Shown piece by piece: positions 32,774 through 57,661 of a stretch of 64,000 bases of DNA. The position numbers and the translations under genes were made by a program. The notes under the pieces are model-generated. The model made no database searches and was not told the origin of the DNA. It worked only from the letters and a program-made list of their open reading frames with translations. The stretch's first letter is position 1. Every line of letters starts with the position of its first letter. The stretch comes from Novakomyces olei (Eukaryota; Ascomycota; Novakomycetes; Novakomycetales; Novakomycetaceae), in assembly GCA_016906335.1 (NCBI GenBank), contig JADEYG010000009.1, forward strand, positions 1,589,259 through 1,653,258. Reading direction: 5' to 3'.

Positions 32774-33546
32774 CTTGTCTCTGTTCCACTACTTGCAACT
32801 TTTCACGGCTCATCCACGAGCCGAAGTCTGTATATATATATTTTGGCCATTGGCAATTTGACGTAATACAAGTAGTCGATTATGTAATCACAATTAGCAC
32901 ATATTGTATCAGTAAAATGGATCTCGATACTTTTTTACGGTTTTTACTACTTTCTGTTGAATCATGCATAATTTCTATTGCCTTGTACATCGACTCGTCC
33001 ACAAAGATACGAACCAATTCAGCTGATGGAACAGCTATAAAACGCCTGCAATTATTATACGGTTTTTTGCGTATTAACTGTAACTTATTACAATATTAGA
33101 ATAAAAGATTCAAACTTTGTACTATATGACGTAATAATTATGACACTTCTATGTTCTATCACCAAATTTACGAGTAAAATATGATATAAATGTATAAGAC
33201 CTTAATTAATTCGCATCCCCATTATATGTTCAGCTGCATTCTGATCACCGAACTGTAATTTATTTGTTTAGGCGCTATCAACAAGAGCTAAATTACAAAA
33301 CATATATAATTTGAACAGCTTCTACAGACTTGTTTGCTTGTTCTATCTTTATGCTCGCAGGCGCCGGTAAAAGCACGGATTTCCATATAGTACAAAAATC
33401 ATCAACACATCAATAAAATGTACACCAGTTTTATAGTATCTCATCATCCCACTGAATGAAATCCTCACCTTTAAAATCCCAGTTTCTCGCAAAATACTTA
33501 GTATCAAACAGTTTGCCTTGACCCGTGTTTCAAATCCATTCTTGTA
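32774..33546. other. Intergenic, nothing recognised
   Basis: AT-rich spacer between the SDR gene's 5' end and the regulator's 3' end. No CGG-N8-CCG site was found by eye. Confidence 0.5.
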
Positions 33547-36340
33547 TTACCATATATTATGCTCCAGCATTGTATTAAATACCCAGTCTGTATCGCTGCT
33601 TTGGATCGAATTTGCTAATGCCATTAATTGGGTTGCTGTTGACCCATCAACAAGGACGAGATCATCACTTATTATCGAATTAGCAGTCGGCCAAGCTTCC
33701 TCTGGAGTAATTTGATCAACCGCGTGTGCTAATTCCGGAGGCACTAGAGCACTGGATGAAGGTAAATTCACGTTTGATGCTTGGGGATTTATTGGATGCC
33801 CATTGTCGTTTGATGTACTAGACTCGCGTTCGAAAGAGCGCATTGAATCTTCCCGTGTTATGTAGTAAATATTAGAACTCAGCTGCTGAAGCTCTGAGCG
33901 ACGATATTTCGCAATAAGATTGCCGCTTAAAACCATTTCTTTAAAGACTACATCCGCTTTTTTCAACCAGATTTCCCTGTCTTTTAAAAGATCTTGATTA
34001 ATGGCAGAGCACGTTAAGAGAATGACGGTAGAAACGGATATATTCTCAAGATCATGCGCCAAAAATGTTTCTTTTACACCGTTAGCCGCTAGTATTCAAG
34101 CAAGCAAAATATATTAATTCGCAAACATTAATTCAACCACGAAAATTAAAATTTATATATAAATACCGAAACTCAAGATCAAAAGCAAACAAAAACTTTA
34201 TCAAGAAATGAAACATTGAAGCTTAAAAAAGAAGACAACGAACTAAATTGAAATTCATTATTTTACCTAGTAGACCTTGTGATTGAAGTCTATTAAGAAT
34301 ATTAGTTATTTGCTGTGATGATTCGACACATGTACGCATAAGACTGCTGACGCTATGCGAAGAATATAGAAGGTCTAAAAGTGATTTCGAAGCTTTTAAT
34401 CGGATTTTCAATAGGCAGAAAGCCAGTGGACGAATTGCAAAAACGATACACTTGTCTTTTAGTAAAAGCTGGCATCAAAGAATCCAGAAAATAGGCTAAG
34501 GCATCTTTATACTCTTACCTGGTGATACAAAAGATGAAGATGCGCTGACGTCCTGGAAACTCCACTTGTTTCCTTGTCAGATTGTAAAGGAAAAGTACTG
34601 CGAAGTTCATCGTTTAATTCTGCCAAATTCGATAATGCCGCCTTTGTGCTAAGTAAAAATGTTCGGTTTAGTCTTCCTTGAAGAGCATACACAGCTATTT
34701 TGTTAATTGTACGTATAAGATCATAGCAGCTATAGTTGCACTTACTGTTGTTAATTTTCGCAATAACTCTGGAGAGCTTTAAATGCATTTGAAGCGAAGT
34801 CGTCATTTCTGCCAATCCGGGAGAGCTTATAGGCATTATATTTGTGGCATCGTTGCTTAGGTATTGAGGTAGACCCATCAAAGAAGTCATCTCAAGATCT
34901 AAAACGTATATAGTCCACCATATTTTAGTGCATCTTGCGACTGTCTTTTCTCCTAGAGACTCTTTGGACATGGCAGTGTGCATGCCTTGCGCCATAGCCA
35001 TTCTAACAGCTTGGCCAATCTATTTTATAGTTAGACAAAGATCAAACACTAAAGGCAAAAGGAAAATTATCGAGCAAAGACCAAACATGGAAGATTTAAA
35101 ACATCAATATTCAGATATCGAAATATTTGTTAATGATATAAACACCAGAACCCCGAATTAATAGAAAAGACCTGATATCAGCTTACATAATTGTGAGCTG
35201 AGGCTCTATAATCAATTGCTTGGTAATAGAGCGCGATACAAGTCAAGATTTCTATAGATTGCACGTAATCGCGATACAATGCAGAAGGGTCCGGTAAGAG
35301 TTGCAGAGCCTTTACAAAAAAGACGGCTCCCGGCGGTCTATTATTGCTAAGACCCTTTTGCTGCGCGAAGCCTTTACCGAGCGCTAAAATAAGCAGGAAG
35401 TGAATGTACCACAAGCTGTTTTTAGACAGTGCGGAACAATCGTCCGAATAAAATTCTTGTAAATTCTGCATAAAGACATCCTCGTCGTATAAATGATATA
35501 ATTGCCCACAATGAAACTTGACGGTATTGATAAGGTAAAGGGTATAATCTAACGTAGGGATCGGAAGAGAACATTCGTCACTAACATTAAACCGCAGCCC
35601 ATCCCAGCCCGTATCATACGTCGACTCATCAAATATTAAAGCGTCCGTTGGCAAAGGTCTTTCGTACAAGTGCAGATAGGTCATGCTCAGAATTCTGAGT
35701 ATAAACGACCAATTTGACGATGTTCCCATATAGACTAAGAGTCAGCATTTTGAAATATGCAGGAAAGAGAGTAGAAAAGTTAAAAATAAAATGAATAACT
35801 GTTTGTCGTGTCGAAAAAACATTGATAAATCAAAAGTGCTATTAGAGGCAATAAAACTGAACGTACAAGTTCTCCCGCGCGATGTTGACATGTATGCAGG
35901 CGGCCCTGAAGAAAGCGGGTTTGGTAGACTCGCTGCTAATTCTTCAGTTTGCCCTTGCTCATCGATCCCTTGATTAACAGAGCTGCTGTAGGCCTTATTG
36001 GGCTCTTGATGAGATATATCTTTATCAGTTTGTATATGCCCAGAGCCTTATAACCCATACCGAAATTTTGGGAGTGATCTAAAGACTGATCTTGTTCCAT
36101 CTTGCTCTGTTCCATGGCAGCTATTTTCTGCTGCAGTCGCAAAACGTATCTGAGATTAGTATATCTCTTCATTGCCCCTAAATATTAGCCTTTAAATAAT
36201 TACCCTTTAGTCACGAGAATCCGCTGCTCATGGCCATCAAAAACACACGCGAGGTTGCGTTTGCCGCATACATCGCACGGTTGAGTACCAGAACACTTGA
36301 TTTTGAGCCTTCGACATCGCGAGCATCTAATACGGTACAT
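33547..36340 (-). CDS. Zn2Cys6 fungal-specific transcription factor, probable cluster regulator
   Basis: Proposed complement(join(33547..34070,34267..34450,34519..35019,35187..35734,35867..36019,36061..36149,36204..36340)), 711 aa, seven exons, every phase consistent. The zinc cluster is almost N-terminal: MYRIRCSRCRRLKIKC then SGTQPCDVCGKRNLAC (C-x2-C-x6-C-x5-C-x2-C-x6-C). HEQRILVTKGYVLRLQQKIA is the linker and dimerisation coiled coil. NPLSSGPPAYMSTSRGRTFY and MGTSSNWSFILRILSMT, rebuilt over introns, open the fungal_trans domain (PF04082). IGQAVRMAMAQGMH and YHQCIVFAIRPLAFC are its later conserved blocks. Such proteins bind CGG half-sites as dimers, as Put3 does for proline genes (CGG-N10-CCG). 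This one starts ~1.26 kb from the divergent FAD oxidase. Whether it is a Put3/PrnA orthologue cannot be decided here. Confidence 0.85.
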
Positions 36341-37326
36341 TTAGCTTACGCATAATATTGTCAAACTTACGCGTTAGGGGCCCTTTTGTTAACCCGGTGA
36401 GCATTGCCCGCCATTGCCGCCCGCCTTTGGGCAGAGTGATGTATGTACCCCGAATAGACGGCGATACTGCACTATTATTTGTATTTTTATCAATTAATAT
36501 AAATAGAGAGTGAGTGGGGAAATGTAGGAGAACGCTTGCCATAGTAAAATAAAAGGCATATGTACGAGGTCAGACAACGACATGATAAGGTCGATATGCG
36601 ATGGGCAAATAGGCTTTGTCGCTATTGAATGTGGGAAAGTAAAATCTGCTTATTATGGGACTAGATACCATCGTTGTGATCATTGCTGAGCTATAGTCAG
36701 GCGAAATTCAAAACGAGGGAGAGTATTTATAAAAGTGGTCTATTAGGAAGCTGTGCCGTGGTGCAACACAAAATGCAGCATACCCAGGAAATTATTCCAC
36801 ATGAACGCTTTCAAGTTTGATTTGTGCTTGCACCTTTTCACTCATGTCATAAACTTTTAACAAAGCAATTTTAACTGAAAAATATAGCCTCCACTTTTTT
36901 TTTTTTTTTTTGCGCAAATGAGAATTTTATTTTATTTTATTTTTTTCTTCAATAAAATTGTATGCGGCAATTGATCACTTTTGCTGAGCAAGACAAATCA
37001 AATTTTCCTTCATATCAGCCGACAGCACTGTCTTCTTACAACTTCCAATCATTTTGAAAGACTTGGATGGCCAATTTTTTTATTTGCAGGGTTTGCGATA
37101 CCAGATTGCCAGATAATATAGTAAACTTTGTTATAATTGATTCAATTGTTGGCAACCGAATGCTGGAATTTTTACAAATTGGGGGCAAGAGAGCCAGAAA
37201 ACAGGTCGCACATAGAATAAGACTTTTAATCCAATCTGAGTGAAGAGAAAACGGCCAGCGCTTCTCGTCCTTTCGGAACGATAATTTGTTATCGCTGCTT
37301 AAGCAAGCGCGTCACATACATCCAAT

Positions 37327-37340
37327 CGGAAACGTTCCCG
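37327..37340. promoter_or_regulatory. CGG-N8-CCG site 1 (FAD oxidase promoter)
   Basis: Sequence CGGAAACGTTCCCG, 260 bases before the oxidase ATG. The inverted CGG triplets are the form bound by dimeric Zn2Cys6 proteins; the 8-base spacing recurs in this cluster. Confidence 0.6.
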
Positions 37341-37431
37341 ATCGCTGAGTGGGTACGATATAGTCAATACTGATAAAGTGAGAAGGAGCTTACCTTTGTG
37401 TTACTTTCTTTATTCTATAAATACCTGTTAT

Positions 37432-37445
37432 CGGAAGCGCTACCG
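37432..37445. promoter_or_regulatory. CGG-N8-CCG site 2 (FAD oxidase promoter)
   Basis: Sequence CGGAAGCGCTACCG, 155 bases before the oxidase ATG and 92 bases after site 1. Confidence 0.6.
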
Positions 37446-37599
37446 CGAGATACGTGGGCGCAATGTAACCTGCCTTTCGGAGAGCGATCTGGTCTTACAT
37501 CAGATACTCCATCTTTATGGACTTAATAAAGACTGAGTAACTACTTGAACTTAATTAGCAATTACAGTTCTGCTGCTTTGATATTTGAAGACGCGCAAT

Positions 37600-39025
37600 A
37601 TGAAAATTCAAAAGTCAGACCCAATAATCATAGTTGGTGGGGGCGCTTATGGTCTTTCGACTGCACTCCATTTGTTGCAAGATGGTTTCACCAACCTATC
37701 CGTCTTTGAAAAGAGCGAGACAATTCCTCCTTTACAGTCGGCTGCGAATGATCTCAACAAAATTGTGCGAGCGGAATACGAGGAGCCATTCTATTCGGAT
37801 TTGACCTTGGTAGGCAGTATACTTTTTTTCAATAAACATATTTTTGTTCAATTTTGATCCGGTTTAGACATCGGCATAAAATGTTTTGTGCTATCATCTT
37901 TGGCTATTTACAGTTTTATTAATTTATCAGAAAGCAATTGAAGCTTGGAAAACTCCTCTTTTTGCGCCACATTTCCACCAAGTTGGTTTCGTCCACTGTG
38001 TGTCTGGAGCTGCTCCACAGGAAGCACAAAACACTCTAAACAGGTTCCAGAAGGCGGCGGAAAATAATCCGGTTCTAAAGCCTCATGTGAAACCAATTAA
38101 CGGGCCCGTCGACGTGCATGAAACTTGCTGGCAATTCAATCAGGGCCAAACGCCAGGCTGGAAAGGCTACGTCAACTACTATGACGGTTACGCACACTCA
38201 GGAAATGCTCTTGTTTCTGTCTTTCGAGCCACAATTTCATCTGGCGTAAAGTACTTCTTGGGGCCTCAATACGAAGTCAAGAAAGTGATTTACGGTAAGC
38301 CTGTGTCTCAGAATTTTGCCGGTGTTCAAACAAAAGACGGTAAGATTTATAAGGCCGCGCTCGTTATTGTAGCGGCTGGAGCGGCAGTTGGACGCTTGAT
38401 TCCAGAACTTGGAAGGCAAGTCGTTGCTAAGTCTTGGTCTGTAGCCCATGTCCATTTGACGGACGAAGAAACGTCGGCTTTACGTGGAATCCCTGTCACT
38501 TATGCCCGTGATTTAGGCTTCTTTTTCGAGCCTGATCCAAAGACAAATTTGTTGAAACTGTGTCCCATGGGTGGTGGCTATATCAATACTGACCCAATGA
38601 ATGGAGTATCTTATGCTCCGGAGTCTTATGGAGATAGTGCGTTTATGCCAGAGGAGGACGAAAAGAAAGTACGGCTTTTACTAAAGCAAACCCTACCTTA
38701 TTTGGCCGATCGCCCTCTGGTGCAAAAGACACTTTGCTGGTTTGCCGATACAAAGGACACAGATTTTATTTTCGATTATGCCCCAAATTCTAATTCTACA
38801 GTACTTGTAATGTCTGGTGACTCTGGCCATGCTTTCAAGATGTTTCCAATAATTGGTTCATGGATCGTCGATCTTTTGAAGGCTCCCAATGGCCAACAGA
38901 ATACAAAGCGCTGGCGCTGGAAGGAAGCTAACGACAAAAAAGAGAAATGGGCCGGAGAAGTCAGCTGGCGGCTTGGCGCAAGCACAGAGTTTGCGGATAT
39001 CAAGCAGCCAAGGTCCAAACTATAG
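37600..39025 (+). CDS. FAD-dependent amine/amino-acid oxidase (MSOX/pipecolate/FAOX family)
   Basis: Proposed join(37600..37809,37931..39025), 434 aa. The start is the first ATG. IIIVGGGAYGLSTALHLL is the dinucleotide-binding loop. Splicing at GTAGGC..TTTATCAG restores YSDLTLKAIEAWKTPLF. The C-terminal LCWFADTKDTDFIFDYAP contains the conserved Cys that in this family carries covalent FAD, and MSGDSGHAFKMFPIIG is the final FAD-binding block. Relatives oxidise secondary amines: sarcosine, L-pipecolate, saccharopine and fructosyl amino acids; some accept L-proline weakly. It shares a divergent promoter with the Zn2Cys6 gene and carries two copies of the cluster motif, so it likely acts on a cyclic or N-substituted amino acid feeding the pathway, for example an N-methylated or N-blocked (hydroxy)proline. 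The substrate is inferred, not shown. Confidence 0.82.
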
Positions 39026-39532
39026 ATCTTGGCAACAGAATTGGGATTATTATTATTAGAATTATTTTTAGGTAAATAGTAAAAACATTTTCTTTTGAAT
39101 TGGGAATCATGCTGAGCTTGAACAAATTAGATATAATAAAAATCAATTGAAATCGGGGAAAAATTACAGTGAAATGCAAAGGTGTAGTGTGAAGAAGAAT
39201 GGGCAGCAATGTGAATTTACTAATGATAAGATTTGTCTTTTGTCCTTCGACAGAGGCAGCTGCACTAAATTAATAAGATCAGATATTTACAAAAATACAG
39301 TGCATTCTGACCTATAAAATTGCTCCTCGAGTTATAAGACAGACATAATGCGGGTAAGTGCTTTAGAACCTTTTTGCAATATGTAAAAAAAGGCTTTTTA
39401 ACCTAAGAGACAACTGTAATTTAGATTGTATTAGCCAAATTGTTGAAATGAAACTTTTTATCATATCCGTCTATATATTTATAGTGACTCGAGACCTGAT
39501 CAGCTAAAACTGGAGATGCTGTCGCGAACAAC
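39026..39532. other. Spacer between convergent genes
   Basis: AT-rich 3' flank shared by the FAD oxidase and P5C dehydrogenase genes. Nothing else is seen. Confidence 0.6.
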
Positions 39533-41516
39533 TTACTCGTTGCTTGGATATAAGAAACCGACCTGGGGAAAAAATTCTTCCTTGATCAAACGAGGATTAC
39601 AGAATTTGCGTAATACGTCTGAGCTGCCCGCCTTATCGTTCGTACCGCTAGCTCGAGCGCCGCCGAAAGATTGCTGACCAATTAGAGCAGCAGTAGTTTT
39701 GCAGTCTGTGAAGAGTTAGAATTATTACAAAATAATAAATAAAACAGCTAAAATAAATGAACGTACTGATATAAAAGTTTCCGGCAGAATAGCGGAGCTC
39801 ATTTTCAGCCTCTCGGATGATTTTCCGGTCCTGAGCGAAAATAGCACCTGTAAGGGCCAACCCGCCACCGGCCTGGTCAACAGTCTTAAGCATCTTTGAG
39901 AAATCGGCATCAGGGTAAACGTAAACAGTAAGAACAGGCCCAAAGATTTCCTCATTGAAAAGCCTATGCTCCGAACTCTTTGCAACGTAGACAGTAGGCT
40001 TGACATAATATCCCACAGAATCATCATAACTACCACCAGCAATGCACTCCAAGCTGGAATCGCTATTGCTCTCATCGATAATCTTCTTGATCTTATCGAA
40101 AGAGCGTCGGTGAATGACGGGGCCCATATAAGCTTCCATATCCTTGTCCGGGTTGCCGATAGTAATCTTGCTGATACCATCTTTCAACAGAGAGAGAAAC
40201 TCTTGTGCTCGCGATTCCGGAAGGTACAAACGCGAAGTTGCTGAGCACTTTTGGCCCTGGTACTCAAATGATCCACGGATAGTGTGGTAAACAGCACTTG
40301 GAATATCAGCGGTAGAGTGAACAAGATGGAAGTTCTTCCCACTTGTCTCAGCTACAACACGAGGAAACTCGCGATAAGATTTGCTGGCAATTCCTTGACC
40401 AATACGGCCATAAAGAGATCGAAAAACATCAGAAGACCCAATAAAATTAAGACCAGCGAAGTCACGGTGTTTAAAGACCGCGTCGTTGATGATCTCAGGA
40501 TCACCAGTGACGAATTGAATTACATTCTTTGGCAGACCTGCTTCCAAGAGGATTTTGTATACCAGATAACTGGCATAGACGCTAGAGGGAGAAGGCTTCC
40601 AGAGAACCACGTTGCCCATAAGAGCGGGAGCAGAGACCAAATTACCTCCTAGAGCGGTAAAGTTGAAGGGAGAGATGGAATAGACGAAACCCTCCAGAGG
40701 CCGATAGTCGAGTCGGCTATATTCAGGTTAGAATTGTGAACAAGGTATAAAACTGCAATACGCTAGTAAGATTGAGTATTATATATTTGAACATTAACCG
40801 AGCAGACACAAAAGTAAGCCAGGGAATCATACCTCCACATTCCATCACTGCCCCGGTCAGGCTGTCTAGCAAAAATTTCTGCGGCATAATTACAGTTCAA
40901 TCGAAAGAAATCGGCCAATTCGGCGGCAGCATCAATTTCAGCTTGCCAGATGTTCTTTCCTTGGCCTAACATAGTGGCTGCAATAATCTCATATCTGTAC
41001 TTTCCAGTCACCAATTCAGCTGCCTTTAAAAAGATGGCTGCACGATCGACGAATGGTGTGTTCTCCCACTCCTTCTTAGCACTTAGGGCTGCTTCAATGG
41101 CCTCAGAGACTTGCTCCTTTGTCGCAAGAGGGTAATTAGTGAATTTAATTGCGTGCTCTGCTGGTAAAGGCTGATCCCATGATTTTTCGCTACTGTGCGA
41201 TTTGCCATCGAATACAATTTCGCTTTGCAAAGGCAATTGAGATCGGAGTCTCTTTAGAACAACTTCCAACTTTTCACGTTCCTCTGAACCCTTTTTATAG
41301 TGTAACTAGAACAAATTTAGCAAACAGTTTGGTTAATTGATAGCAAAATAAAGAATTTTTTGAACGGATTGGAGGAAAGTTTTTGCATTGGCGTACGTTA
41401 GACTCGTTTCTGGGATCAGGTAAGCGAAATGGCATGGTGGTGCTTGTTCGAAGTTGAACAAACCGACCCGCCTGGCGCATTGATCGCGCATTAGAGATTA
41501 ATGATAATCTAGCCAT
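39533..41516 (-). CDS. PUT2: Delta-1-pyrroline-5-carboxylate dehydrogenase (ALDH4 family), mitochondrial
   Basis: Proposed complement(join(39533..39705,39767..40716,40833..41305,41397..41516)), 571 aa. It oxidises P5C (as glutamate semialdehyde) to glutamate with NAD; mammalian ALDH4A1 also takes the 3-hydroxy analogue to 4-hydroxyglutamate. The N-terminus MARLSLISNARSMRQAGRFV looks like a presequence. SRLDYRPLEGFVYSISPFNF, the base ETSGKNFHLVH, the nucleophile in EYQGQKCSATSR, and the end YINCKTTAALIGQQSFGGAR with ASGTNDKAGS are family hallmarks. The last is recovered only after splicing, which confirms the final exon. A CGG-N8-CCG site lies 154 bases upstream. Neighbours are P5C reductase and the proline-dehydrogenase-family gene on the same strand. 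A second, housekeeping copy may exist elsewhere. Confidence 0.93.
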
Positions 41517-41669
41517 ATTACGATGTGCTGACGCCTTGCTTTTGTATAAAATGCTGTTACACCGGAAGTCTGAAAGCACAAGAACTGGCTTGTCAAAGAG
41601 CAGGCTGTCCCCTTTATACATCTGTTATCGGATAATAATTATTATAATTCAGCTACAATAAATGTACGT

Positions 41670-41683
41670 CGGATGCTTTCCCG
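41670..41683. promoter_or_regulatory. CGG-N8-CCG site 3 (P5C dehydrogenase promoter)
   Basis: Sequence CGGATGCTTTCCCG, 154 bases upstream of the P5CDH start codon, in the ~700-base spacer before the P5C reductase 3' end. The rest of this spacer (41517-42221) shows no gene. Confidence 0.6.
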
Positions 41684-42221
41684 ATGGTTATTTTTTCCTT
41701 ATCTTGTTTCCATATCGGACGGAACACTCCAAATTTGGAGTGGCGGTAAAGTGCGAATATATCCCTAGACACAAATCGCATTTGAATGGAATATGGAGAG
41801 CGAAGCAGACCATGTATTTGTAAGAAATTCTGTATTTTGATGTTTTCAAACTAAAATGACCCCAGCTGTCAAATGTTTGCGTGTTGTTTTGGGACTATTT
41901 TGTATCATGTTGATGAACCATGTGATGTGTTCAGTACTAGCAAGTGATGGTTAAATGTATATGTATTTTTTTCTAATAAACAATTACCTAAAACTACTGA
42001 ACTTGTCGTTATAATTAACAGTGCTTGTAGAGCTATGGGAAAAGACATGCTGACCTAAGAAAATTCTGCAAAACATGTAGTCAGAAATAATTACCAATAA
42101 AATGTGCCGTCCTACTTAAAAGCCAGATAAACTTTGGACGTGAATTGAATCTCTTTAGCCAACTGAAGAATCTCATATTTTAATGAAGCAGATCAATACT
42201 GTAAAATCTATTTAAAACATT

Positions 42222-43195
42222 TTAGTGCCTTGTATCGTTAATGTGGGGTACACTTCCCATAAGGCGGGCTACGGTAACTGCTTCACGCACAGCTCGTCCC
42301 AAATGACCTCGAACCCCTGCTTCTTCCATGACCATCACTCCAGCGATTGTACAGCCTCCAGGTGAAGTGCCCTGATCCCTCAATTCCGCTGGAGATACCC
42401 CACTTTGAAGAATACCCGCTGTACCGCGCATAGACTGAAATATCATTTTACGGGCAAGACTGCGGGGCACGCCAACAGCGACAGAAGCATCAATCATAGC
42501 ATCACAAACAATTGAGAAAAATGCGGGCGTAGAGCCAGCCACAGCAGTAGCTGCATCCATCAATTTTGGTTCAATTTGGACTGTTTCGCCAATTTGTTCG
42601 AAAATGAAATTTGTCAAGTAAAAAAGGTCCTCTGGAGGTTTTGGATCTGATACTTCAATAGCAGTCAGAGACTGTGCAACCTGGGAGGCAACATTGGGCA
42701 AGGTACGAACAACCCAAGCCCGATCTTTTGTATGGTTCTCAGCCGTAGTTTTAGATCCGTAAAGTGCTTCTTCCAATTCTGGTCTTGTCCAGCCAGCAGC
42801 TACACTTATCAAAAGTTTGCCCTTCAATACCTGACGAAGAGCGTCATTGTTCAGTACCTCTGCAATCTCGCTAGGTTCAACGCCTAAGATTATAGTATCT
42901 GCCTCCTCGACCGCTTTGACGTTCTGGCTTCGATAAACTGAAAGCTTGTCCGAGTATTTGGAAAAACGAGCCTCAAGTCTTGAGCCCGACGCTTCGCTGC
43001 GTACGCATGCAATGAACCGTGAAAAGGGGAAATGTTTCGCGTCTTTTTCAACAGCGGCAAGTAGACCGCCTAAAATGGCAACGCCCATGTTTCCTGCCGA
43101 CAGAGCGAAAATTCAGGTCAGAGAAATACTTCAAAGGTGTGCTAGGCTAACGTACCACATCCTAGTATACACAGAGTCAAGTTACTAGGAGCCAT
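42222..43195 (-). CDS. PRO3: Pyrroline-5-carboxylate reductase
   Basis: Proposed complement(join(42222..43093,43156..43195)), 303 aa. The enzyme reduces P5C to proline with NAD(P)H. Splicing MAPSNLTLCILGCG to NMGVAILGGLLAAV rebuilds the Rossmann loop GCGNMGVAILGG. VEEADTIILGVEPSEIAEVL, LISVAAGWTRPELEEAL and VRTLPNVASQVAQ follow. The C-terminal dimerisation domain contains AVAGSTPAFFSIVCDAMIDA, and SPAELRDQGTSPGGCTIAGV is the family's signature segment. Placing a biosynthetic reductase beside the two oxidases is unusual; it could recycle P5C or its hydroxy form, or balance redox. Its promoter lacks an exact CGG-N8-CCG, but a CGG-N9-CCG lies at 43380-43394. Confidence 0.93.
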
Positions 43196-43646
43196 TATAT
43201 ACAATAGAGTCTGCAATGGAGTTAAAGCAAAGCCTAAGCGCGTCCGGTTTTGTCTGGTCTACTGCTGATATTAATTTATTATATACGCTTGAAAAACAGA
43301 GAGTATAGTGCAAATCTTTCGATGCGTTATCTTCCAAATCTTCGGTATACGTGTGATAAAGCATTTAAATGGGTTCTATCGGGATTCGGATCCGATGATA
43401 TCTTGTGCGGGATATATAAAACGGTGTGTGTGGGCGTAATATTAAATATAGTCTGAAATGGATAAGTCCGATAAGAAACTAATGAAATAATCTGCAAACT
43501 TTTTGGCGCTATTATTACTAAAATTTTCATAACTGGATCTACATAATCGATAACGGAAGGGTTTTACTCATACCTCGTAATCATCATTTATCTAAATTTC
43601 TTTTCATCGCTTAAATGTTCTGTGTTCAATTTGAAAATCAGGACTT

Positions 43647-45174
43647 CTATGTAGAGACAGCTGGTAAAAATCGAGAAAAACATCTCCGGGCCAGCTCCTT
43701 CTTTAAAGCTTTGTGTTCATCACCAGTGCGTGCTACAGCGTCTCTATTTTCAACAGCTCTGCGAAGAAGGTACGCCAGACATTCAGTCATCGTTCCCCAT
43801 TGCGAGCACTTGTAAACCTCTGGAGTGCCGCTGTTGTCCTTCATTTGTAGTAGAGAGAAACTGACTTCGTCGGACATTCCATGAAGCTGTCCAAATCGAA
43901 CTGGTACCGTTGGTAAATTGTGCTCGATTCGATGCTTGTGAAGATCGTGAGCTTCAATTACACTTTTCTTGTTGTGGCTTGCCAAGAAAAGGTTAACCAA
44001 TGGGAATGGCTTATCAATACCAAATTGTTCAAACTGTTGTTTAAGTACAGACTGAGAGATGTAGTTGTAAGCATCGTCAGTATTCTCTTTTGTATCGTGG
44101 ATCAGACACCTCTCGTCGGTATTCATATAGGCGCCTCTGACTAACTTCAGACCGAGTGTAAATCCTTCTTTTTCAGCCTCATCCATATGCTTGAGGATTG
44201 TCGACGGAGTACTTTTCAAGTAAGCCTGATATGTATTATAGATAATCGCATAGCCGTCCCTGTTATATTTGCGCATGAGAACCATGCCGGCTTTGAATAT
44301 TCCCCATTGGAAACGCTGAGATTCAGCATCAATGAGGATGCGAATACCGCGAGATTTGCATTTTGTAGCAATTTCATCCATAGCATCAACTGCTTGTTGT
44401 GACGGAAGTTCGTTCCGTGCTAAAGCCGCCGCAACATTAGGCCCGGCTCCAGTCATTCTAAAAATTAGTTTAAAAGAATTTTCTAAAAAAGTCTTGAACC
44501 TGTTTCGGTTTCAAGGCTTTAGCGCCTTCTTTCACTTACTTTAGAGCCAGATAGTCCCCTTCTTCCAGAAACTCCACAGTCAATAAAGTTCCGACCCGCC
44601 AGGATTCTATGTTTGCACACTTAGCAAGAGCTGGGTCTACAGACAGTCCCTTTTCTTTTTTTTCCAACACCGCCATTCCTAAGCCTTGCTCTGTTCTTGT
44701 TTTATGATCGAAAGTTATCTCCTTCGCATAAGTCATAATCATGCCACGAAACCCCATATTTTTTATTTGCCGAACGGTAGATTTGACTTGATCAGCATTT
44801 TCTCCAGAACAAAACTGATTGTAAAACGTTTTCTTCAGAAGATTTTTTAACAAAGGGTTGCGATCGACATTATAAATAACTGATTCTCCTGGGCTTGAGA
44901 TTTTTGTTAAGGCAGCAAGCGCTGGAGTAAGAAGATATGGTTTTGATGAGACTGTTGAAACGAGCAGTGACCTTAAAAGGATAGGAGTCGGTATCGCAGA
45001 CAGAGGTGGTAACGCAGATGTCTCAGCAGGCTTATCGAGCTGCTCAGCCCGTACCCCGGCACTTGAAGAGGAGGACTGGATTCCCCTGACAAAAGATCGA
45101 TCAAGTAATTTTGAAGAATTTGCAACCGACTTTAAAAGATCTAGTCTAGAATTTGACACAGCAATACTTGCCAT
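43647..45174 (-). CDS. Proline dehydrogenase family enzyme, candidate hydroxyproline dehydrogenase
   Basis: Proposed complement(join(43647..44457,44540..45174)), 481 aa. FAD-linked (beta-alpha)8-barrel enzyme that would pass electrons from (hydroxy)proline to the respiratory chain. The N-terminal ~60 residues are basic and Ser-rich, compatible with mitochondrial import. Splicing gives YLALKMTGAGPNVAAAL. Next come RILIDAESQRFQWGIFKAGM, KLVRGAYMNTDERCLIHDT and FLASHNKKSVIEAHDL. RFGQLHGMSDEVSFSLL leads to the substrate helix LAYLLRRAVENRD, with both carboxylate-binding arginines. Twelve residues before the Tyr of AYLLRR, where proline dehydrogenases have the Tyr that packs against C4 of proline (KY.PWG), this protein reads VYKCSQWG: Cys. 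Mammalian hydroxyproline dehydrogenase has Ser there. Two CGG-N8-CCG sites lie upstream. Confidence 0.9.
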
Positions 45175-45511
45175 TTCGATCTTACTTCTGTCAAGTTTAG
45201 TTTTTCGAATCTAGTATTTGGAGGTTCAAGGAGATGGAGCTTTGATTTAAAGGTGGTAGACTCCATCTCTTATCAGCATATCGAATCATGCCTATTAGAT
45301 TCTTTATTCATTCTCGGGTTTAGTTTCCGTGTCAGGCACGACAGCGGTAAATACAGATTATTTTTGCTTTACAAATTGTCATTACTTGATTGTTCGCCAT
45401 GCCCACAATTGCCGCCTGGAACTCCTGTCATCGGCCAATCAAAGACCACTATCTTATCAAGGGTGGAAAAAATAAAAAAATACACTAACCCTCTCCTTTC
45501 GGACATGACAG

Positions 45512-45525
45512 CGGGAGCTCTTCCG
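45512..45525. promoter_or_regulatory. CGG-N8-CCG site 4 (dehydrogenase promoter)
   Basis: Sequence CGGGAGCTCTTCCG, 338 bases upstream of the proline-dehydrogenase-family ATG. Confidence 0.6.
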
Positions 45526-45574
45526 TCCGCCATATTGTGGAGACAGGGCAGTTTTACCGACGATGCTGCCGACA

Positions 45575-45588
45575 CGGCAAAGCTCCCG
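45575..45588. promoter_or_regulatory. CGG-N8-CCG site 5 (dehydrogenase promoter)
   Basis: Sequence CGGCAAAGCTCCCG, 401 bases upstream of the same start codon and 63 bases from site 4. The spacer 45175-46019 holds no gene; its far end is the 3' flank of the aminotransferase gene. Confidence 0.6.
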
Positions 45589-46019
45589 ATTACTTTCGTA
45601 TGAAGTTGTTAAACAGGCACAGTAATCCCAGTCCGCTAGCAGCATTTATAAGCAAAGTTATTACAGTATTTTACTAATTTTATTGCGGCCTAGAACGAGA
45701 ATCAATTGGTCTTCAGATGAAAGGGAAACCGATTTCTTGCCAAACTCCATTTCTCTAAAAGACGAGGAAAAACTGCTAGTTTTTGTCATTATATACTTCT
45801 AGACTCTTATTTCTAGTATTGCTCTAGCCGCCATCAAATCCATATTAACGTTCGTTTTCATCGGCTTCGAACTTCTATTCAAGGATTAATATAATAAATA
45901 AATAATGCCCAAAATATTTGCCCGACGAGTTTTACCATTGCTCAATTAATGATACAATATTTATGCAAGTTCTTACATCTAAGCTTTGACATTTATATGA
46001 TTAAAATTGGCTATGGCAA

Positions 46020-47531
46020 TTATCCTTTTAGCGCGTTGGCTATAGATTTCGCCACGTACTCAACATTTCCTGGATTAAGACCAGCAATGGAAATACGAGA
46101 ATTTTCCGCCATATATATATGGTATTCCTCTTCATTTGTTAGAACAATCGATTATTGGATATAAGATGATAACAAACCTTTAAGTTTCCGAACAATCTCC
46201 GGAGACAATCCAAGAAAGCCGAACATGCCAGTCTGCTTGATTAAATGGTCCCAAGTCCCAGGGGCACCTTCGATATTAGTCAACAGTTCTAGTCGATATG
46301 ATTTAAATGAAATGCTGAAGGAGATACCTAATGAAAGCAGATTCTCATATAATCTTTCCCTCATCAACCGAATCCTTGAGCTCATAGTAATCAAATCTCG
46401 GAACCATTCTTGCCGAAGATCATCATTGGTTAGAATATTTGTAGCGATTTTAGCCCCGTAAGCCGGAGGATTGGAGATTTCAGATCGCTGCAGCATTTCA
46501 AGCATAGATTGACTATTAATAGCTGACGTTGTGCTGTTCGTCTTGAGAACAAAGCATCCAACTCGTTCTCCTAGAAAGTAAAAACAGTCAAATAACTTTC
46601 AGAATAGAAATGCAACACCCAAATTTCTAATTAACATTAAAAAATTCATCTTTGTCAAGCTTCTTACCATAAAGACCCATATTTTTAGCAAACGATACAC
46701 AAACTCCAGCTTCCATATGTAATTCGCCGATGATGTAGTGAATAGCAAACGCGTCGTTATCAATATTTCCAGAGTTAAATCCCAGATACGCGGCATCAAG
46801 CAGAGGGAACATTTCTTTAATTTTCAACAATTTGCACAATTTTACCCACTGATCTCGGCTTGGATCACAGCCAGTTGGATTATGAGCACAACAATGCAAA
46901 ATGACAACTGACTTATCATCTGCCGCTTCCAAATGAGAATAATACGTATCAAAGTCCAAATCTTTAAATTCTTCATTATAATATTGCAATTTTTCACACT
47001 TGAAGCCTAGCGAAGAGAAAACTTGGAAATGATTCGACCAGGTTGGCACAGGAATATAAATTTTTGGTAGAGTTTTTGGATGACATGCCCTTAGAAGCGC
47101 TCCTGCCACATGCAAAGAGCCAGTGCCCGATAAGGTCTGACATGTTGCAATCTGAGATTAGCCCTTGACCAATTAATCTCATTTATAACATTTTAGACAC
47201 ATTCGAAAATGAATAGATGTTATACCTTGTCTTGAGACTTTGCATAAATCTCTGAGCCCAGAACCAGCTCGGCAACAGACTGCCTAAATCTAGGCAGTCC
47301 TAGAATTGGAAGGTATTCATGATTCAGACCCTCATATGCTAAGCTTTCGCGGCTTTTCCTGACAGATGGCAGGATCCATGGTTGTCCATTTTCATCACGA
47401 TATGTCCCTTGTCCCAGATTGACTTTTCGTGTATCAGTGTCTTTCTGAAACTGTGCAGTCAGTGCAAAAATAGCATCAGGAGGAACGTATATGGCGCACG
47501 CCAGAAAAGACGGCGTCTCGTCTTTTGTCAT
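46020..47531 (-). CDS. Aspartate aminotransferase
   Basis: Proposed complement(join(46020..46129,46178..46570,46668..47151,47226..47531)), 430 aa from the first ATG (MTKDETPSFLACAIYVPPDA). PLP enzyme exchanging amino groups between dicarboxylic amino and keto acids; the mammalian enzyme also converts 4-hydroxyglutamate to 4-hydroxy-2-oxoglutarate. VNLGQGTYRDENGQPW, CQTLSGTGSLHVAGALL, HCCAHNPTGCDPS, LLDAAYLGFNSG, the PLP lysine in CVSFAKNMGLYGERVG, and ENSRISIAGLNP with the alpha-carboxylate arginine are all present. Intron 3 starts with GTTTGT; the join KLKEEYHIYMAENSR supports it. No clear presequence, and the C-terminus ALKG is not a peroxisomal signal, so it looks cytosolic. It is divergent from the aldolase, and one CGG-N8-CCG site sits between them. 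Confidence 0.92.
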
Positions 47532-47788
47532 TTTTGCCGATCCTGCTATTGAGCCCAAAATAATGGGTTCTTTTGAGAGGCACAAGGCACGTAGTCCTAT
47601 ATTATATGTACATATATATATTTGCCGGACCTCATCGAGTGTTCTGCGCTTTCGCCTTTATACATAGCTCCAATTCTCCAGAGATTACAATAGTGCTATA
47701 AGTGAATTGAGGTCAATTTTCACGTTATTGGAAGTATCTTGAGTTGTTCTCATTAACCCTGCGATACTTTTGCGAAGTTTCTTGGACA

Positions 47789-47802
47789 CGGAAGCGATCC
47801 CG
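47789..47802. promoter_or_regulatory. CGG-N8-CCG site 6 (aminotransferase/aldolase divergent promoter)
   Basis: Sequence CGGAAGCGATCCCG, 258 bases upstream of the aminotransferase ATG and 138 bases upstream of the aldolase ATG. One site could serve both genes. Confidence 0.6.
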
Positions 47803-47939
47803 TTCATATCAAAGGCGCCCACTTAAGATTGATTAAATAAATGTTCAAGTTATTGAGAGTATAATTTAGCGCGCTTGGAACGACTTAGCAAAATCCCGTC
47901 TAGCAGCCAAACCTACGAGTGCTCTGCCGCAAGATAACA

Positions 47940-48899
47940 ATGACAAACCATCCTAAGTTGCACGTTCCATCATCAGGCGTTTGGTGCCCGGCCATAACCT
48001 TCTTCAATCATGATACGGACTCATTGGATTTAGACTCACAATCGCAATATTTTTCGTACCTGGCGAGATCAGGGCTCACTGGACTCGTTATACTTGGCAC
48101 CAACGCGGAGGCTTTTCTGCTGACCCGTGAAGAGCGCAAGCAGCTTATTGCAACAGCCCGCGAATCAATTGGACCCGAATTTCCGATCATGGCCGGTGTC
48201 GGAGCCCACTCTACAAAACAGACGTTAGAACTTGCTCAGGATGCTTATGAAGCGGGGGCTGACTACTTACTGGTTTTGCCTCCCGCTTACTTTGGCAAAG
48301 CCACCACCATAAGCGTGATAAAGAATTTTTTCGTTACTGTGGCAGCCAAAGCCCCGCTTCCAGTCGTCCTGTACAACTTTCCCGGTGTTTGCAATGGCGT
48401 CGATTTGGATTCAGATACAATTACGGCGATTACACGCGAAGCGCCTAATCATAATGTTGTGGGAGTTAAACTGACTTGCGGATCTGTCGGTAAGATCACC
48501 CGTTTGGCAGCAACATTTTCGCCTGAAGAGTTTGCCGTGTTTGGTGGTCAGTCTGATTTCCTTATTGGCGGTTTAGCGTCCGGCAGCGCAGGATGCATTG
48601 CCGCGTTTGCAAACGTTTTCCCAAAAACTATCTCTTGCATCTATAGGCTGTACAGTGAGGGCAAATATGAGGAAGCTTTGAAATTGCATCAAAAGGCAGC
48701 CCTGGCTGAGAGTGCTATCAAGGGAGGAATTGCTGCTACAAAATATGCTGTAGCCTACCATCTGGAATCTGCTGGAGTATTCAAGAGCATTACTTCAAAA
48801 TTGGAGCCAAGGCAGCCATACGAGGCTCCTAGCGAGCCAGCTAAGCAAACTATCAGGGAAAAACTAGCTGAAGTTGCCAAGATTGAATCAAATCTGTAG
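47940..48899 (+). CDS. DHDPS-family aldolase, candidate 4-hydroxy-2-oxoglutarate aldolase
   Basis: Single exon, 319 aa from the ATG at 47940. Class I (Schiff-base) aldolase of the dihydrodipicolinate synthase/N-acetylneuraminate lyase superfamily. GVWCPAITFFNHDTDSLDLD opens the barrel. LVILGTNAEAFLLTREER holds the place of the GTTGE loop. Tyr145 in VVLYNFPGVCNGVD and Lys177 in VVGVKLTCGSVGKITRL are the catalytic pair. AVFGGQSDFLIGGLASGSAG is the active-site entrance. Relatives include human HOGA1, which splits 4-hydroxy-2-oxoglutarate into pyruvate and glyoxylate, and fungal deoxy-sugar-acid aldolases of galacturonate and rhamnose catabolism, as well as bacterial hydroxyproline-pathway deaminases. 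Its company (P5CDH, aminotransferase, PRODH family) points to the HOGA role; sequence alone does not settle it. Confidence 0.88.
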   Translation: MTNHPKLHVPSSGVWCPAITFFNHDTDSLDLDSQSQYFSYLARSGLTGLVILGTNAEAFLLTREERKQLIATARESIGPEFPIMAGVGAHSTKQTLELAQDAYEAGADYLLVLPPAYFGKATTISVIKNFFVTVAAKAPLPVVLYNFPGVCNGVDLDSDTITAITREAPNHNVVGVKLTCGSVGKITRLAATFSPEEFAVFGGQSDFLIGGLASGSAGCIAAFANVFPKTISCIYRLYSEGKYEEALKLHQKAALAESAIKGGIAATKYAVAYHLESAGVFKSITSKLEPRQPYEAPSEPAKQTIREKLAEVAKIESNL

Positions 48900-49875
48900 A
48901 CAAAGGTTTAAAGAGACGCCAGGTATATAAAGAAAAATTGTTAATTAGCACTGTATTTAAAATTTGGTCTGTGTTCCCGCTGATATTGAAAACTTTTTGG
49001 TGTAAATTGTTGTAAATTTGTTATGACCTTATTGGAGACCTATCGTAACTTGACAATCTGAAGGGATATCTGCCAGGTCCACTATACTAGATGCTCGACA
49101 CAACAGTTTTGAGAAGGTTGGATTTCAGCTGGTCGAATAAATTGGATTAACCGAGCAACACTTTGTATAATTAGGATGAAACAAATAATTATACTTAGGG
49201 GAACTGTCTTCTACCGCCTTTTTTACAGGAGCAAGAGGAAATCAAAATTGTAAGTAGAAAAAAGCACATCCTACCTTTTGTTGATTATTGCCGAAAAACA
49301 TTAATTATCATTCGAGTTCATGCGTTCAAAGTGGATTCGCCCGCATCAGGTTTGACTTTTTCTTCATTACAAGAGTCGTTCTTAAAAAAATCTAAAAACC
49401 TGAAGGTACGATTTGAGGTACGAGAGCTGTAGTTTGATCTTGATTGAGAGCACGCCAGAGTTCACCGAGTACTTCGTCTAAGTTTCGGACGATGAGTATA
49501 GTATGTGCAGTCAGCACTCAATCCGGCAAAATTAAGCGCTCGGAGAAACTCCATTTTTTCAAGCCAATCAAAGATTAAATCAATTATCAGATTAATTATC
49601 AGATTAACTATCAGATCAATCAGATTAATTATCAGATTGCGACATCGGCAATATGGTCTGGTTTAGTCAGCGAAGTTATTATTTTTTTCCTGTGTTTATC
49701 TCATACCCACTCTGCTGTTGTAAGCACATTGTTCTGCGCACATTCAAATGCCGATGGCCGCTTTGTGGACTGATGCAGTTCGCATGTCGAATATCCACCA
49801 CGTTTCGCAGAAGGCATAAAAGCAAAAAGATACAGACACACAAGGCATTTGGTCTTTAAATTCTAATCCGACGCA
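48900..49875. other. Promoter region of the OPT transporter
   Basis: AT-rich, no gene. 49568-49640 holds several copies of ATCAGATTAATT. A one-sided relative of the cluster motif, CGG-N8-CAT, occurs at 49541; no exact CGG-N8-CCG was found. Confidence 0.5.
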
Positions 49876-52457
49876 ATGCTGACAGGATCTGACGTAGAAA
49901 AAAGTCAGAATACTCGACCTTTAGACGACGAAATGGCAACGGCGGTGCTCAAGGATGGAGAATTGGCTTCAGAGCATGAAGTTAGAGATGACAGGTCCAG
50001 CGCAGACTCTTCCTCTTTTATTTCCAGCAATGATCTGGACAAAATTACGCAAATAGACGGTTCCAATGTGCTCTGTGCCAGTAAGTGCTTAATAAAATGT
50101 TCCTCGTGTCTAAGCATGTAGCCCTGCGGATGTGGGTAATTGCTATATTCCTGGTGACTATCGGTGTTGCTGTCAATTCCATATTTATGTTTCGTTTCCC
50201 TTCCGTAACAATTTCGGCCATTGTTTTGCAGATCGCCGCTTTCCCGCTCGGACGGCTTTGGGAGATTATTATGCCAAACAACTCTATATCTTTGTATAGA
50301 TGGAGTATACCAATAAACCCCGGGCCATTTCACGTGAATGAACATTGCTGCATTTTTATTATGGGCAATTTAGCCTTACCGTAAGCACGAAATTGCTCAA
50401 AAAGAAAAAGACGAAAAAAGAGAATCTTTTTAGGATCAGAGATGCAAGAAACTGTTAATGGAAACGAGAACAATCTCGAGGCAAACCCTTGATCCCCAAT
50501 CAAAAGCAGCTTTCAAAGAGACTTACAATTCTAGCATTCGCCTGAGTTCAGAAATTTTGTTAGAAATAAAACACTATTGGAAGCAAGATTTCAATGGGGG
50601 TTTCCAATATCTTTTTACAATCTCTGTTATGCTATTTGGACTGGGTATGGCCGGGATGTCAAGGTCCATTCTTGTAGACAACCCGGACATGCTTTGGCCT
50701 TCTAATCTCGGCAACATTGCTTTGCAAAACGTATTGCATGGCCGCAATTCTCAATCAAAAGAACTTACAGGCTGGAGAATTTCCGTTTACTCCTTTTTTA
50801 TCTGTGTTCTTTCCGGCGCTTTTGTTTGGCATTGGTTTCCGGACTTTATTTTCCCGGCTTTAAGCACTTTGGGTGCCTTTATCAGCTGGTGCAAGCCGTC
50901 TTCAGCTACTCTTGCCCAAGTATTCGGAATGAGCACAGGCATGGGATTGTTTCCACTAACTTTAGATTGGAGCCAGATCGCCAACTTGGGCTCACCTCTC
51001 ACCACACCGTGGTGGGTGATTACAAATATGGCTTCGTCAATTGTGTTTTGGCTGTTTATTGTTACCCCGGCACTGTACTATTCTAATGTTTGGGATTCTG
51101 CTTATTTTCCTCTGCTGAGCAACAAACGTGAGTTTGTCTCCAACCCCTTTGCATTTAACAACAGATTTTAAGCCTTGCCTACCGCCGTTTACGTATTTAT
51201 TATTTGACTTTAAATTTTTATTTTTGCTTAGTCTTTGCCGTTACTAATAGGCCAGTTTATGACAAGAACGGTAAAAGCTACAAGACCGACAGAATACTAA
51301 GCGGCATCACTTTCAATGAAGAAGGGTACAGCAGCTATTCCAGTATCTATCTGCCTATTACATACGCTCTTTCTTTTGGATTGGAGTTTGCCACGATTAG
51401 CAGCACTATAGTAGACGTCGGTCTAAACGAGTTGCCTAAATTCTTTAAACCTCACCGTGATAAAAGCGCAACAGAAAATGTGTACAATCAAATACAAGTA
51501 AAACACAATCCGACACCCTACTGGTGGCACGGATCTATCCTTATAATTGGCTTTGCTCTTATGATGGCAGCATCTCAAGGCTGGGGTACACAAACGCCTT
51601 GGTACGCTGTGATCGTAAGCTGTCTTATTGCTCTCGTTACATTTGTTCCTTTTGGCGTGTTGCGAGCTAAAACAAATCAAAAGGTTTCAATTATGGTCCT
51701 GATGCAAATTATTGCGGGTTACTGGTTTCATGGAAGACCACTATCTGTAATTTTTATGATGGCTTTTGGGTTTTTGTCGGCTGATAAAGGTCTGGCATTT
51801 GCACAAGACATGAAGTTTGGGTATTACCTGGGAATCCCACCGAGAACTGTTTTCTTTGTACAGCTTGTTGGAATACTTTGGTCAGGTCTAGTGGAAGTTG
51901 GCGTCGTAAATTGGACGCTGGCAAATGTGGCGCACGTTTGCACTAAAGACGCTTATAATAACTTCAATTGCCGGTTTGCCCAATCACATTACAATACGAA
52001 TATAATCTGGGGCGTTATTGGACCTCAGAGAGTTTTCGGCGAGACTCATTATGGCAAACTATATTGGTTCTTTCTCATTGGTGCAATATTGCCAGTCATC
52101 AGGTTCGTTATACTGCGCTTTAGGCCTAAATCTTTCGTGCGGCTTGTCAGTATTCCTTTGTTCTTTAGTGGCGCCAGCAATATTCCAACCATAACTGGTG
52201 TTAATATTACGTCTTGGGCAATCGTTGGTTTTGTTTTCAACTACGTCATCCGCAAAATAAACAGAGCCTGGTGGTTGATCTACAATTTTCCCTTGAGCGC
52301 TGCGCTGGATGCTGGTACCAGCATTGCAACGATCTTAATATTTCTTGTCATTAATTTGACTGGGGCGAGTAGTAGTTTTTCCTGGTGGGGGACAACTGTC
52401 GCAGGGAAAGGCTGCGACGCGGAGGGCTGCCCCCATTTAAATATTGCCAACAGCTAG
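49876..52457 (+). CDS. Oligopeptide transporter (OPT family)
   Basis: Proposed join(49876..50080,50122..50380,50469..51127,51232..52457), 782 aa. Proton-coupled plasma-membrane importer of tetra- to hexapeptides or related compounds. The ~65-residue N-terminus is acidic and cytoplasmic. TLRMWVIAIFLVTIGVAVNS starts helix 1. NPGPFHVNEHCC is the OPT NPGPF/KEH motif. DFNGGFQYLFTISVMLFGLG, LFAVTNRPVYDKNGKSYK (rebuilt over intron 3) and ADKGLAFAQDMKFGYYLGIP are further family blocks. The C-terminus is VVAGKGCDAEGCPHLNIANS-like, where OPTs usually have Cys-rich tails. The start of exon 3 is uncertain (50442 is an alternative in the same phase). As the last gene of the cluster it may bring in Pro/Hyp-rich peptides. 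Confidence 0.85.
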
Positions 52458-57290: not shown

Positions 57291-57661
57291 GAGAAGAATT
57301 AGGGTTATTTAGTTCTAAGTGTATGAATGTTAGGGTTAGTAATTTATTATAAGAGAATGATAGCATGTTGGGGGAAGAAGTTTATAAAATAGAGAATGGT
57401 AATGGGGGTTAGGGTTATGGAGGAATAATGTTTGGTAAAATGATGTATGGGGATTAATGTATGGGGGAATAATGTATGTAGGAATATATATGGTATAAAT
57501 ATAAGTATTTATTAAGCATGGAGACTAATATAAATATATTCAAAAAATATATATTCAAGACGAAGCTATTGCGAAATTTCATTTATGTGTAATGTAATTC
57601 TTAGTCTTTAGCTTATTAATTATGTATCTTAGCGGTAGTAAATTCACTTTGCCAAACAGTC

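Follow-up and report, generated by a model that had tools for sequence, protein, structure and literature searches.

We describe an apparently subtelomeric, compact and co-regulated gene set in Novakomyces olei that probably breaks down trans-4-hydroxyproline (Hyp), and probably proline as well, from collagen- or extensin-type peptides. Collagen and the walls of plant cells are rich in Hyp, and the mammalian pathway from 4-hydroxyproline to glyoxylate consists of PRODH2, ALDH4A1, aspartate aminotransferase and HOGA1. The original prediction for positions 33547..52457 of the window (the whole 64,000-nucleotide stretch analysed) was a self-contained, mammalian-type hydroxyproline-to-glyoxylate cluster. 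Its enzyme families, a PRODH-family enzyme without the proline-enforcing tyrosine, an aldolase without the DHDPS arginine and a motif shared by most promoters support a hydroxyproline-to-glyoxylate cluster, whereas the aldolase lies on another contig in nearly all the relatives compared. The terms "self-contained" and "mammalian-type" are not supported as worded, because a peroxisomal-type oxidase and a P5C reductase, both conserved beside PRODH, are left unexplained by them.

Gene content and genomic setting

All eight genes named in the prediction were confirmed in the region, each by a Pfam match over cut-off (bit scores for Aminotran_1_2, DHDPS and OPT are those of the best exon of each). 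Seven of the genes could be modelled with an uninterrupted reading frame between start and stop codon, six of them with GT-AG introns and the aldolase without; model starts and introns are our choice, made from the sequence alone. The Zn2Cys6 transcription factor (33547..36340, minus strand) is a partial model of several exons, with the zinc cluster at 36203-36340 (PF00172, 36.2 bits) and a Fungal_trans domain at 34507-35019 (PF04082, 26.3 bits). It is followed by an FAD amine oxidase (FAO; 37600..39025, plus strand, two exons, 434 aa; DAO PF01266, 55.1 bits), Delta1-pyrroline-5-carboxylate dehydrogenase (P5CDH; 39536..41516, minus strand, four exons, 571 aa; Aldedh, 232.3 bits), P5C reductase (P5CR; 42222..43195, minus strand, two exons, 303 aa; P5CR_dimer, 115.2 bits) and the PRODH-family enzyme (43647..45174, minus strand, two exons, 481 aa; Pro_dh PF01619, 166.2 bits). 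Beyond these lie an aspartate/aromatic-type aminotransferase (46020..47531, minus strand, four exons, 430 aa; Aminotran_1_2 PF00155, 102.4 bits), a DHDPS-family aldolase that is a candidate 4-hydroxy-2-oxoglutarate aldolase (47940..48899, plus strand, one exon, 319 aa; PF00701, 148.3 bits) and an OPT-family oligopeptide transporter (49876..52457, plus strand, four exons, 760 aa; PF03169, 245.9 bits, with matches in both large exons).

As predicted, Pfam and NCBIfam profile matches place the four enzyme families of the mammalian route together, packed into 9.4 kb (39536-48899). The fungal genes share these families with the mammalian pathway and differ from it in forming a cluster, together with a regulator and a transporter, and in the addition of the oxidase and P5CR. 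The OPT gene, which had been placed at the front, lies at the far end of the cluster, about 11.5 kb from a contig end bearing TTAGGG-type repeats. Further PRODH, P5CDH, P5CR and aminotransferase genes occur elsewhere in the same genome, as does a malate synthase gene.

Both P5CDH (TIGR01236, 703.7 vs 613.6 bits) and P5CR (TIGR00112, 220.6 vs 196.75 bits) exceed their NCBIfam equivalog cut-offs, and the aminotransferase scores 379.7 bits (cut-off 377) against the subfamily PRK09257, named aromatic amino acid transaminase. Different from the mammalian pathway, neither the N-terminus of the aminotransferase nor the aldolase has an obvious mitochondrial presequence. The best PDB relative of FAO is the fructosyl amine oxidase 3DJD (213 bits); the predicted family of this enzyme stands and, judged by its best relatives, is refined to the amadoriase/saccharopine-oxidase type, which it resembles in sequence family and in a PTS1-like end. 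This C-terminal SKL, a peroxisomal type of signal, is also found in 50 of 120 homologues among the matches listed.

Contig C10, 27,026 bases long, matches the window collinearly between position 36194 and the telomere, with approximately 95% identity. Its copies of P5CDH, the aminotransferase and the aldolase contain many stops, and that of FAO does not. The first 18 kb carry 446 single-base losses (272 in same-base runs), 84 single-base gains and 162 mismatches, and the differences are uneven, with seven at 36-39 kb of the window vs 103 at 39-40 kb. We rejected a second cluster decaying under RIP, since the changes are mostly single-base losses and just 48 of the 162 mismatches are transitions. 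This spectrum and unevenness fit a duplicate contig left unpolished better than RIP, and C10 is less probably a real second chromosome end.

Active-site residues and promoter motif

Tyr540 of PutA is described as favouring proline over hydroxyproline (PMC3718742). The cluster PRODH has Cys429 at the aligned position, and the copy on contig C3, to which it is 29.4% identical, has Tyr there; this column is tied to PutA through the C3 copy, whose PDB alignment is weak; for the cluster PRODH itself, a search of the PDB returned no matches. Among the matches listed, aligned homologues have Cys in 118 of 120 cases and Ser in two. Absence of the proline-enforcing tyrosine is a criterion of the mammalian-type Hyp pathway, and the cluster enzyme lacks this residue; its Cys differs from the gatekeeper of human PRODH2, which we take to be Ser.

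The aldolase is 70% identical to the solved structure 3QFE (469.8 bits) and only 28.9% identical to human HOGA (107.6 bits). Following the residue roles given for HOG aldolase, including Asn78, Ser198, Lys196 and Tyr168, and for Arg138 of DHDPS (PMC3188589), it retains equivalents of the Schiff-base Lys196, Tyr168 and Asn78, all three also kept in 120 of 120 homologues among the matches listed, and lacks that of Arg138. Its paralogues have Thr (C3) and Ala (C7) at the Asn78 position. Thr occupies the positions of both Ser77 and Ser198 of HOGA, and the S77T change is described as lowering activity of the human enzyme (PMC3188589).

Six CGG-N8-CCG sites with similar cores were identified in the cluster promoters: two between the transcription factor and FAO (37327..37340 and 37432..37445, both plus strand), one in the P5CDH promoter (41670..41683, plus), two in the PRODH promoter (45512..45525, minus; 45575..45588, plus) and one in the promoter common to the aminotransferase and the aldolase (47789..47802, plus). 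The P5CR and OPT promoters contain none. Six sites in 4640 promoter bases, compared with 3044 in 14.34 Mb, give a Poisson probability of 5.5e-4, with 39 patterns tried, and the likeness of the six cores was matched by one of 5000 draws of background sites. The whole window is rich in this motif (20 vs 5.5 expected from shuffles), and 14 of the 20 sites lie outside the cluster promoters. Genome-wide, neither the motif (3044 vs 3941) nor, when one mismatch is allowed, its consensus (105 vs 128) exceeds the reversed control. There are 14 exact consensus sites in the genome, nine of them outside the cluster and the C10 copy, and none of the longest reading frames near these nine points to the pathway. 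The Put3-type spacing CGG-N10-CCG occurs once in the cluster promoters.

Linkage in other fungi and alternative readings

Co-conservation, as judged from same-contig counts that rest on best-hit lists, is divided. In 29 of the 38 species compared, FAO and PRODH lie on a single contig, which sets the putative FAO apart from the amadoriase/saccharopine oxidase family at large. For the aldolase, a common contig with FAO occurs in one species of 10 and a common contig with PRODH in none of 17, close to one of the outcomes that the prediction had named as evidence against itself, although linkage is not required for enzymes to cooperate. Among 360 proteins, merged forms join PRODH with P5CR (four), the aminotransferase with PRODH (one) and FAO with the aminotransferase (one), and in them the gene order aminotransferase-PRODH-P5CR recurs. 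Against the Hyp reading, FAO and P5CR, the genes found conserved beside PRODH, appear to be no steps of the mammalian route.

This pattern bears on two other readings. The aldolase might be a chance neighbour acting on a sugar acid (a 2-keto-3-deoxy acid), a proposal that overlaps with the others and that we consider rather unlikely. In its favour, the gene lies on another contig in all compared relatives but one, and four homologues among the matches listed are annotated 2-keto-3-deoxy-L-rhamnonate aldolase, but others bear the annotation 4-hydroxy-2-oxoglutarate aldolase. Against it, Asn78 is kept, the promoter and its single CGG-N8-CCG site are common to this gene and the aminotransferase, and in Neofusicoccum ribis aldolase and FAO likewise lie near each other, two locus tags apart. 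Somewhat less probable still is a prn-like cluster for proline or cyclic imino acids in general, with the aminotransferase and the aldolase lying alongside but serving other functions. The linked set in other fungi (FAO, PRODH, P5CR and aminotransferase, with the aldolase mostly elsewhere) agrees with it, and fungi are known to have proline clusters under a Zn2Cys6 regulator, such as the prn cluster of Aspergillus nidulans (prnA, prnX, prnD, prnB and prnC), which likewise combines this regulator with PRODH and P5CDH (PMC5983819). However, the genome already has other PRODH, P5CDH and P5CR genes, and the cluster PRODH lacks the tyrosine (in a comparison with PutA, the C3 copy and the listed homologues). 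As described, prn has a proline permease and CCGG-N-CCGG sites for PrnA (PMC5983819), whereas the transporter here is of the OPT family, no permease of that kind is among the cluster genes scanned, CGG-N8-CCG is the common motif and CCGG-N-CCGG is absent from the 64-kb window. The cluster also adds P5CR, aminotransferase, FAO and aldolase to the prn set.

A lysine-pipecolate cluster would instead make FAO a saccharopine or pipecolate oxidase, let P5CR convert P6C to pipecolate and have P5CDH and the aminotransferase act on aminoadipate compounds. Several FAO relatives are named L-saccharopine oxidase, and others sarcosine oxidase or fructosyl amino acid oxidase; the fungal saccharopine oxidase is described as a 45-kDa peroxisomal flavoenzyme, consistent with the SKL end, and P5CR as able to make pipecolate (PMC9854754). 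We regard this as unlikely, as it leaves no role for PRODH and the aldolase and the dehydrogenase passes the P5CDH equivalog cut-off. Bacterial lhp clusters act on hydroxyproline, the likely substrate here too, and use enzymes of the DAO, DHDPS and ALDH superfamilies, all present here; FAO would then be a D-Hyp oxidase acting after an epimerase, the DHDPS-family protein a deaminase and the dehydrogenase one for ketoglutarate semialdehyde. Such a route is highly improbable: proline racemase/Hyp epimerase (PF05544) had no matches in an intron-blind six-frame search of the genome, the dehydrogenase is a P5CDH, and PRODH and the aminotransferase would stand idle.

Proposed route and its implications

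For the favoured hydroxyproline reading, we infer from sequence what each protein acts on, where in the cell it works, how the regulator is linked to the sites, and what P5CR and the oxidase do. The OPT protein would take up peptides, from which cellular peptidases would free Hyp. With its small gatekeeper residue, the cluster PRODH could oxidize Hyp to 3-hydroxy-P5C in mitochondria, P5CDH would produce 4-hydroxyglutamate and the aminotransferase 4-hydroxy-2-oxoglutarate, which the aldolase would split into pyruvate and glyoxylate, the latter being taken up by malate synthase. P5CR might convert surplus hydroxy-P5C back into Hyp. Another imino acid, cyclic or N-substituted, may be the substrate of the peroxisomal-type oxidase. 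Via the CGG-N8-CCG sites, the Zn2Cys6 protein would activate the cluster genes.

Aspergillus fumigatus is described as growing, slowly, on 4-hydroxyproline as a nitrogen source (PMC2526178). Among the openly licensed papers listed in our searches, none presented fungal genes for degrading 4-hydroxyproline, and none contradicted the claim that no fungal cluster of such makeup has been described. We tentatively propose, with more doubt than confidence, that filamentous ascomycetes share an undescribed Hyp cluster. In it, PRODH may have independently become a hydroxyproline dehydrogenase by replacing the gatekeeper tyrosine that is also replaced in vertebrate PRODH2 (Cys taking its place, or Ser in a few species). 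The enzyme would be coupled to an imino-acid oxidase of peroxisomes without animal counterpart, and the HOG aldolase may have joined in some lineages only. If the hydroxyproline reading is right, it would name genes for fungal 4-hydroxyproline breakdown, allow hydroxyproline dehydrogenases of fungi to be predicted from one residue and reveal the organisation, in fungi, of a pathway known from primary hyperoxaluria.

Subtelomeric position and gene order of the cluster

The genome spans 14.34 Mb in 15 contigs. One of them, JADEYG010000009.1 (C9), terminates together with the window, at window base 64000 within TTAGGG-type repeats. Because the terminus consists of telomere-like TTAGGGTTAG repeats (63907–64000), the eight-gene cluster (33547–52457) lies about 11.5 kb from a chromosome end. 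Toward the telomere, the gene models follow the order Zn2Cys6 factor (a partial model), FAD amine oxidase (FAO), pyrroline-5-carboxylate dehydrogenase (P5CDH) and reductase (P5CR), proline dehydrogenase-family enzyme (PRODH), aspartate-type aminotransferase (AAT), aldolase, and oligopeptide (OPT) transporter. The gene list and coordinates of the original prediction are correct, except that the OPT transporter, placed there at the front, is the last gene. AAT, PRODH, P5CR, and P5CDH form a minus-strand tandem, and a divergent 408-base promoter is common to AAT and the aldolase.

A region at 57620–61725, in which an OrsD-like domain (25.3 bits, under the Pfam cut-off of 26.6) precedes a DEAD/Helicase_C frame, resembles fungal telomere-linked helicases. 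Two related subtelomeric blocks (55845–57300 and 62210–63916, approximately 6.4–6.6 kb apart) lie on either side of it, and both carry AT-rich tandem arrays of 15/44 bases. On its inward side the cluster is directly followed by two genes for NAD(P)-binding proteins of the NmrA/epimerase type and by a weak MFS fragment that scores 28.6 bits against a cut-off of 33.4 (27996–28718, 30044–30472, and 31727–32788); a CGG-N8-CCG match at 32435 falls inside a coding frame. A 27-kb contig of this genome (C10) duplicates the C9 end with mostly single-base losses; it is probably an unpolished duplicate, which would create false pseudogenes.

Promoter sites and predicted co-regulation

Six CGG-N8-CCG sites were identified within the 4640 bases of cluster promoters, as delimited by hand, where about one is expected from the 3044 sites genome-wide (Poisson P = 5.5e-4 before correction for the 39 patterns tried). 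They are present in the promoters of the Zn2Cys6 factor/FAO, P5CDH, PRODH, and AAT/aldolase, and absent from those of P5CR and OPT. The six sites have inner octamers that coincide at 37 of 48 positions, a likeness matched by 1 of 5000 random six-site draws from 98 background sites and by none of 5000 composition-based sets. The whole window holds 20 sites versus 5.5 in shuffles, 14 of them outside the cluster promoters (including four within cluster gene bodies), and genome-wide neither the motif (3044 versus 3941) nor the derived consensus (105 versus 128) is commoner than its reversed control, so the case for co-regulation rests on the local gathering of sites and the likeness of their cores. 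The cluster is probably co-regulated, and we infer that its own Zn2Cys6 regulator may bind these predicted sites.

Active-site residues of PRODH and the aldolase

The Tyr of "KYMPYG" in a second PRODH, on contig C3, aligns with the Tyr of "EYAPVG" in PutA proteins (PDB alignment, weak, best E 0.003), which we take to be Tyr540; the cluster PRODH has Cys429 in this column. Tyr540 of PutA favors proline over hydroxyproline (PMC3718742, citing Ostrander et al., 2009). Among the best 120 of 945 homologue matches, the column holds Cys in 118 and Ser in two, a conservation within this enzyme type and not of all fungal PRODHs. The two Ser-bearing proteins (P0128 and P0138) are from Penicillium odoratum and P. 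lividum, and Ser is presumably the residue of human PRODH2.

The aldolase is 72–73% identical to its closest relatives among the matches listed. Over the stretches compared, its identity is 69.7% with 3QFE (a structure named "putative") and 28.9% with human 4-hydroxy-2-oxoglutarate (HOG) aldolase, HOGA. In human HOGA, Lys196, Tyr168, and Ser77 are catalytic and HOG is bound by Asn78 and Ser198, with Thr45, Ala163, and Arg138 found instead in DHDPS (PMC3188589). At the five HOGA positions, the alignment places Lys, Tyr, Thr, Asn, and Thr in the cluster aldolase, with Cys replacing the DHDPS Arg; Lys, Tyr, Asn, and the Thr at 198 are identical in all 120 homologues among the matches listed. DHDPS-family paralogues on C3 and C7 carry Thr and Ala, respectively, at the Asn78 position. 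These residues are compatible with HOG cleavage but fall short of proof, because in the human enzyme S198T raises KM 7-fold while retaining kcat, and S77T lowers kcat (PMC3188589).

Linkage in other fungi and the probable substrate

Linkage was compared for FAO, PRODH, and the aldolase, with contigs recognized as the same by their lengths in the listed-homologue tables. Of the 38 species present in both lists, 29 have FAO and cluster-type PRODH on one contig (nine do not), in what we take to be Eurotio-, Sordario-, and Dothideomycetes. Locus tags are close in five of the 29, as in Penicillium alfredii (NUU61_007448/007449) and P. paradoxum (N7457_009153/009157). Six of 360 listed homologues (P0157, P0176, P0184, P0209, P0233, and P0310) carry two cluster domains, as PRODH-P5CR (four), AAT-PRODH (one), or FAO-AAT (one). 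The first two orders agree with the window, in which FAO and AAT are non-adjacent; these proteins are probably merged gene models or annotation errors that still point to a shared neighborhood. For the aldolase, a contig in common with FAO was seen in one of 10 species (Neofusicoccum ribis, SLS56_008256 and SLS56_008258), and one in common with PRODH in none of 17 among the listed homologues, the main result against the mammalian-type four-step route to glyoxylate originally predicted.

Additional copies of PRODH (C3), P5CR (C9), and P5CDH (C7, 51% identical to that of the cluster) and three further aspartate-type aminotransferases (41–44% identical in main stretches) occur elsewhere in the genome, so the cluster is more than a housekeeping route for proline; a fungal proline cluster, prn, is known (PMC5983819). 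A hydroxyproline route accounts for PRODH, P5CDH, AAT, and the aldolase, and a pipecolate pathway would explain FAO and P5CR. The bacterial hydroxyproline route lacks its epimerase here, with no PF05544 match in an intron-blind six-frame search of the genome. E. coli ProC oxidizes the 4-hydroxyproline isomers with an efficiency 150- to 300-fold below that for proline (PMC12899673), making it chemically plausible that P5CR would return hydroxy-P5C to hydroxyproline. No fungal 4-hydroxyproline catabolic cluster was found in the literature surveyed, mostly openly accessible papers. Aspergillus fumigatus grows slowly on hydroxyproline (PMC2526178), and a bacterial cis-3-hydroxyproline dehydratase has fungal homologues, one near a putative trans-3-hydroxyproline dehydratase gene; for the homologue tested, the main substrate is perhaps another (PMC5144071).

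FAO ends in SKL, and of its 120 listed homologues 50 end in SKL too, a further 38 in TKL, and nine in AKL, so FAO is probably peroxisomal. N-termini are basic in P5CDH and PRODH and not in AAT and the aldolase, which suggests mitochondrial first steps and cytosolic later ones. This would differ from mammals, in which all four enzymes of the route are generally placed in mitochondria. Malate synthase is present in the genome and could use the glyoxylate product. We regard this as a real, partly conserved imino-acid cluster, for which hydroxyproline is, on balance, the most likely substrate.
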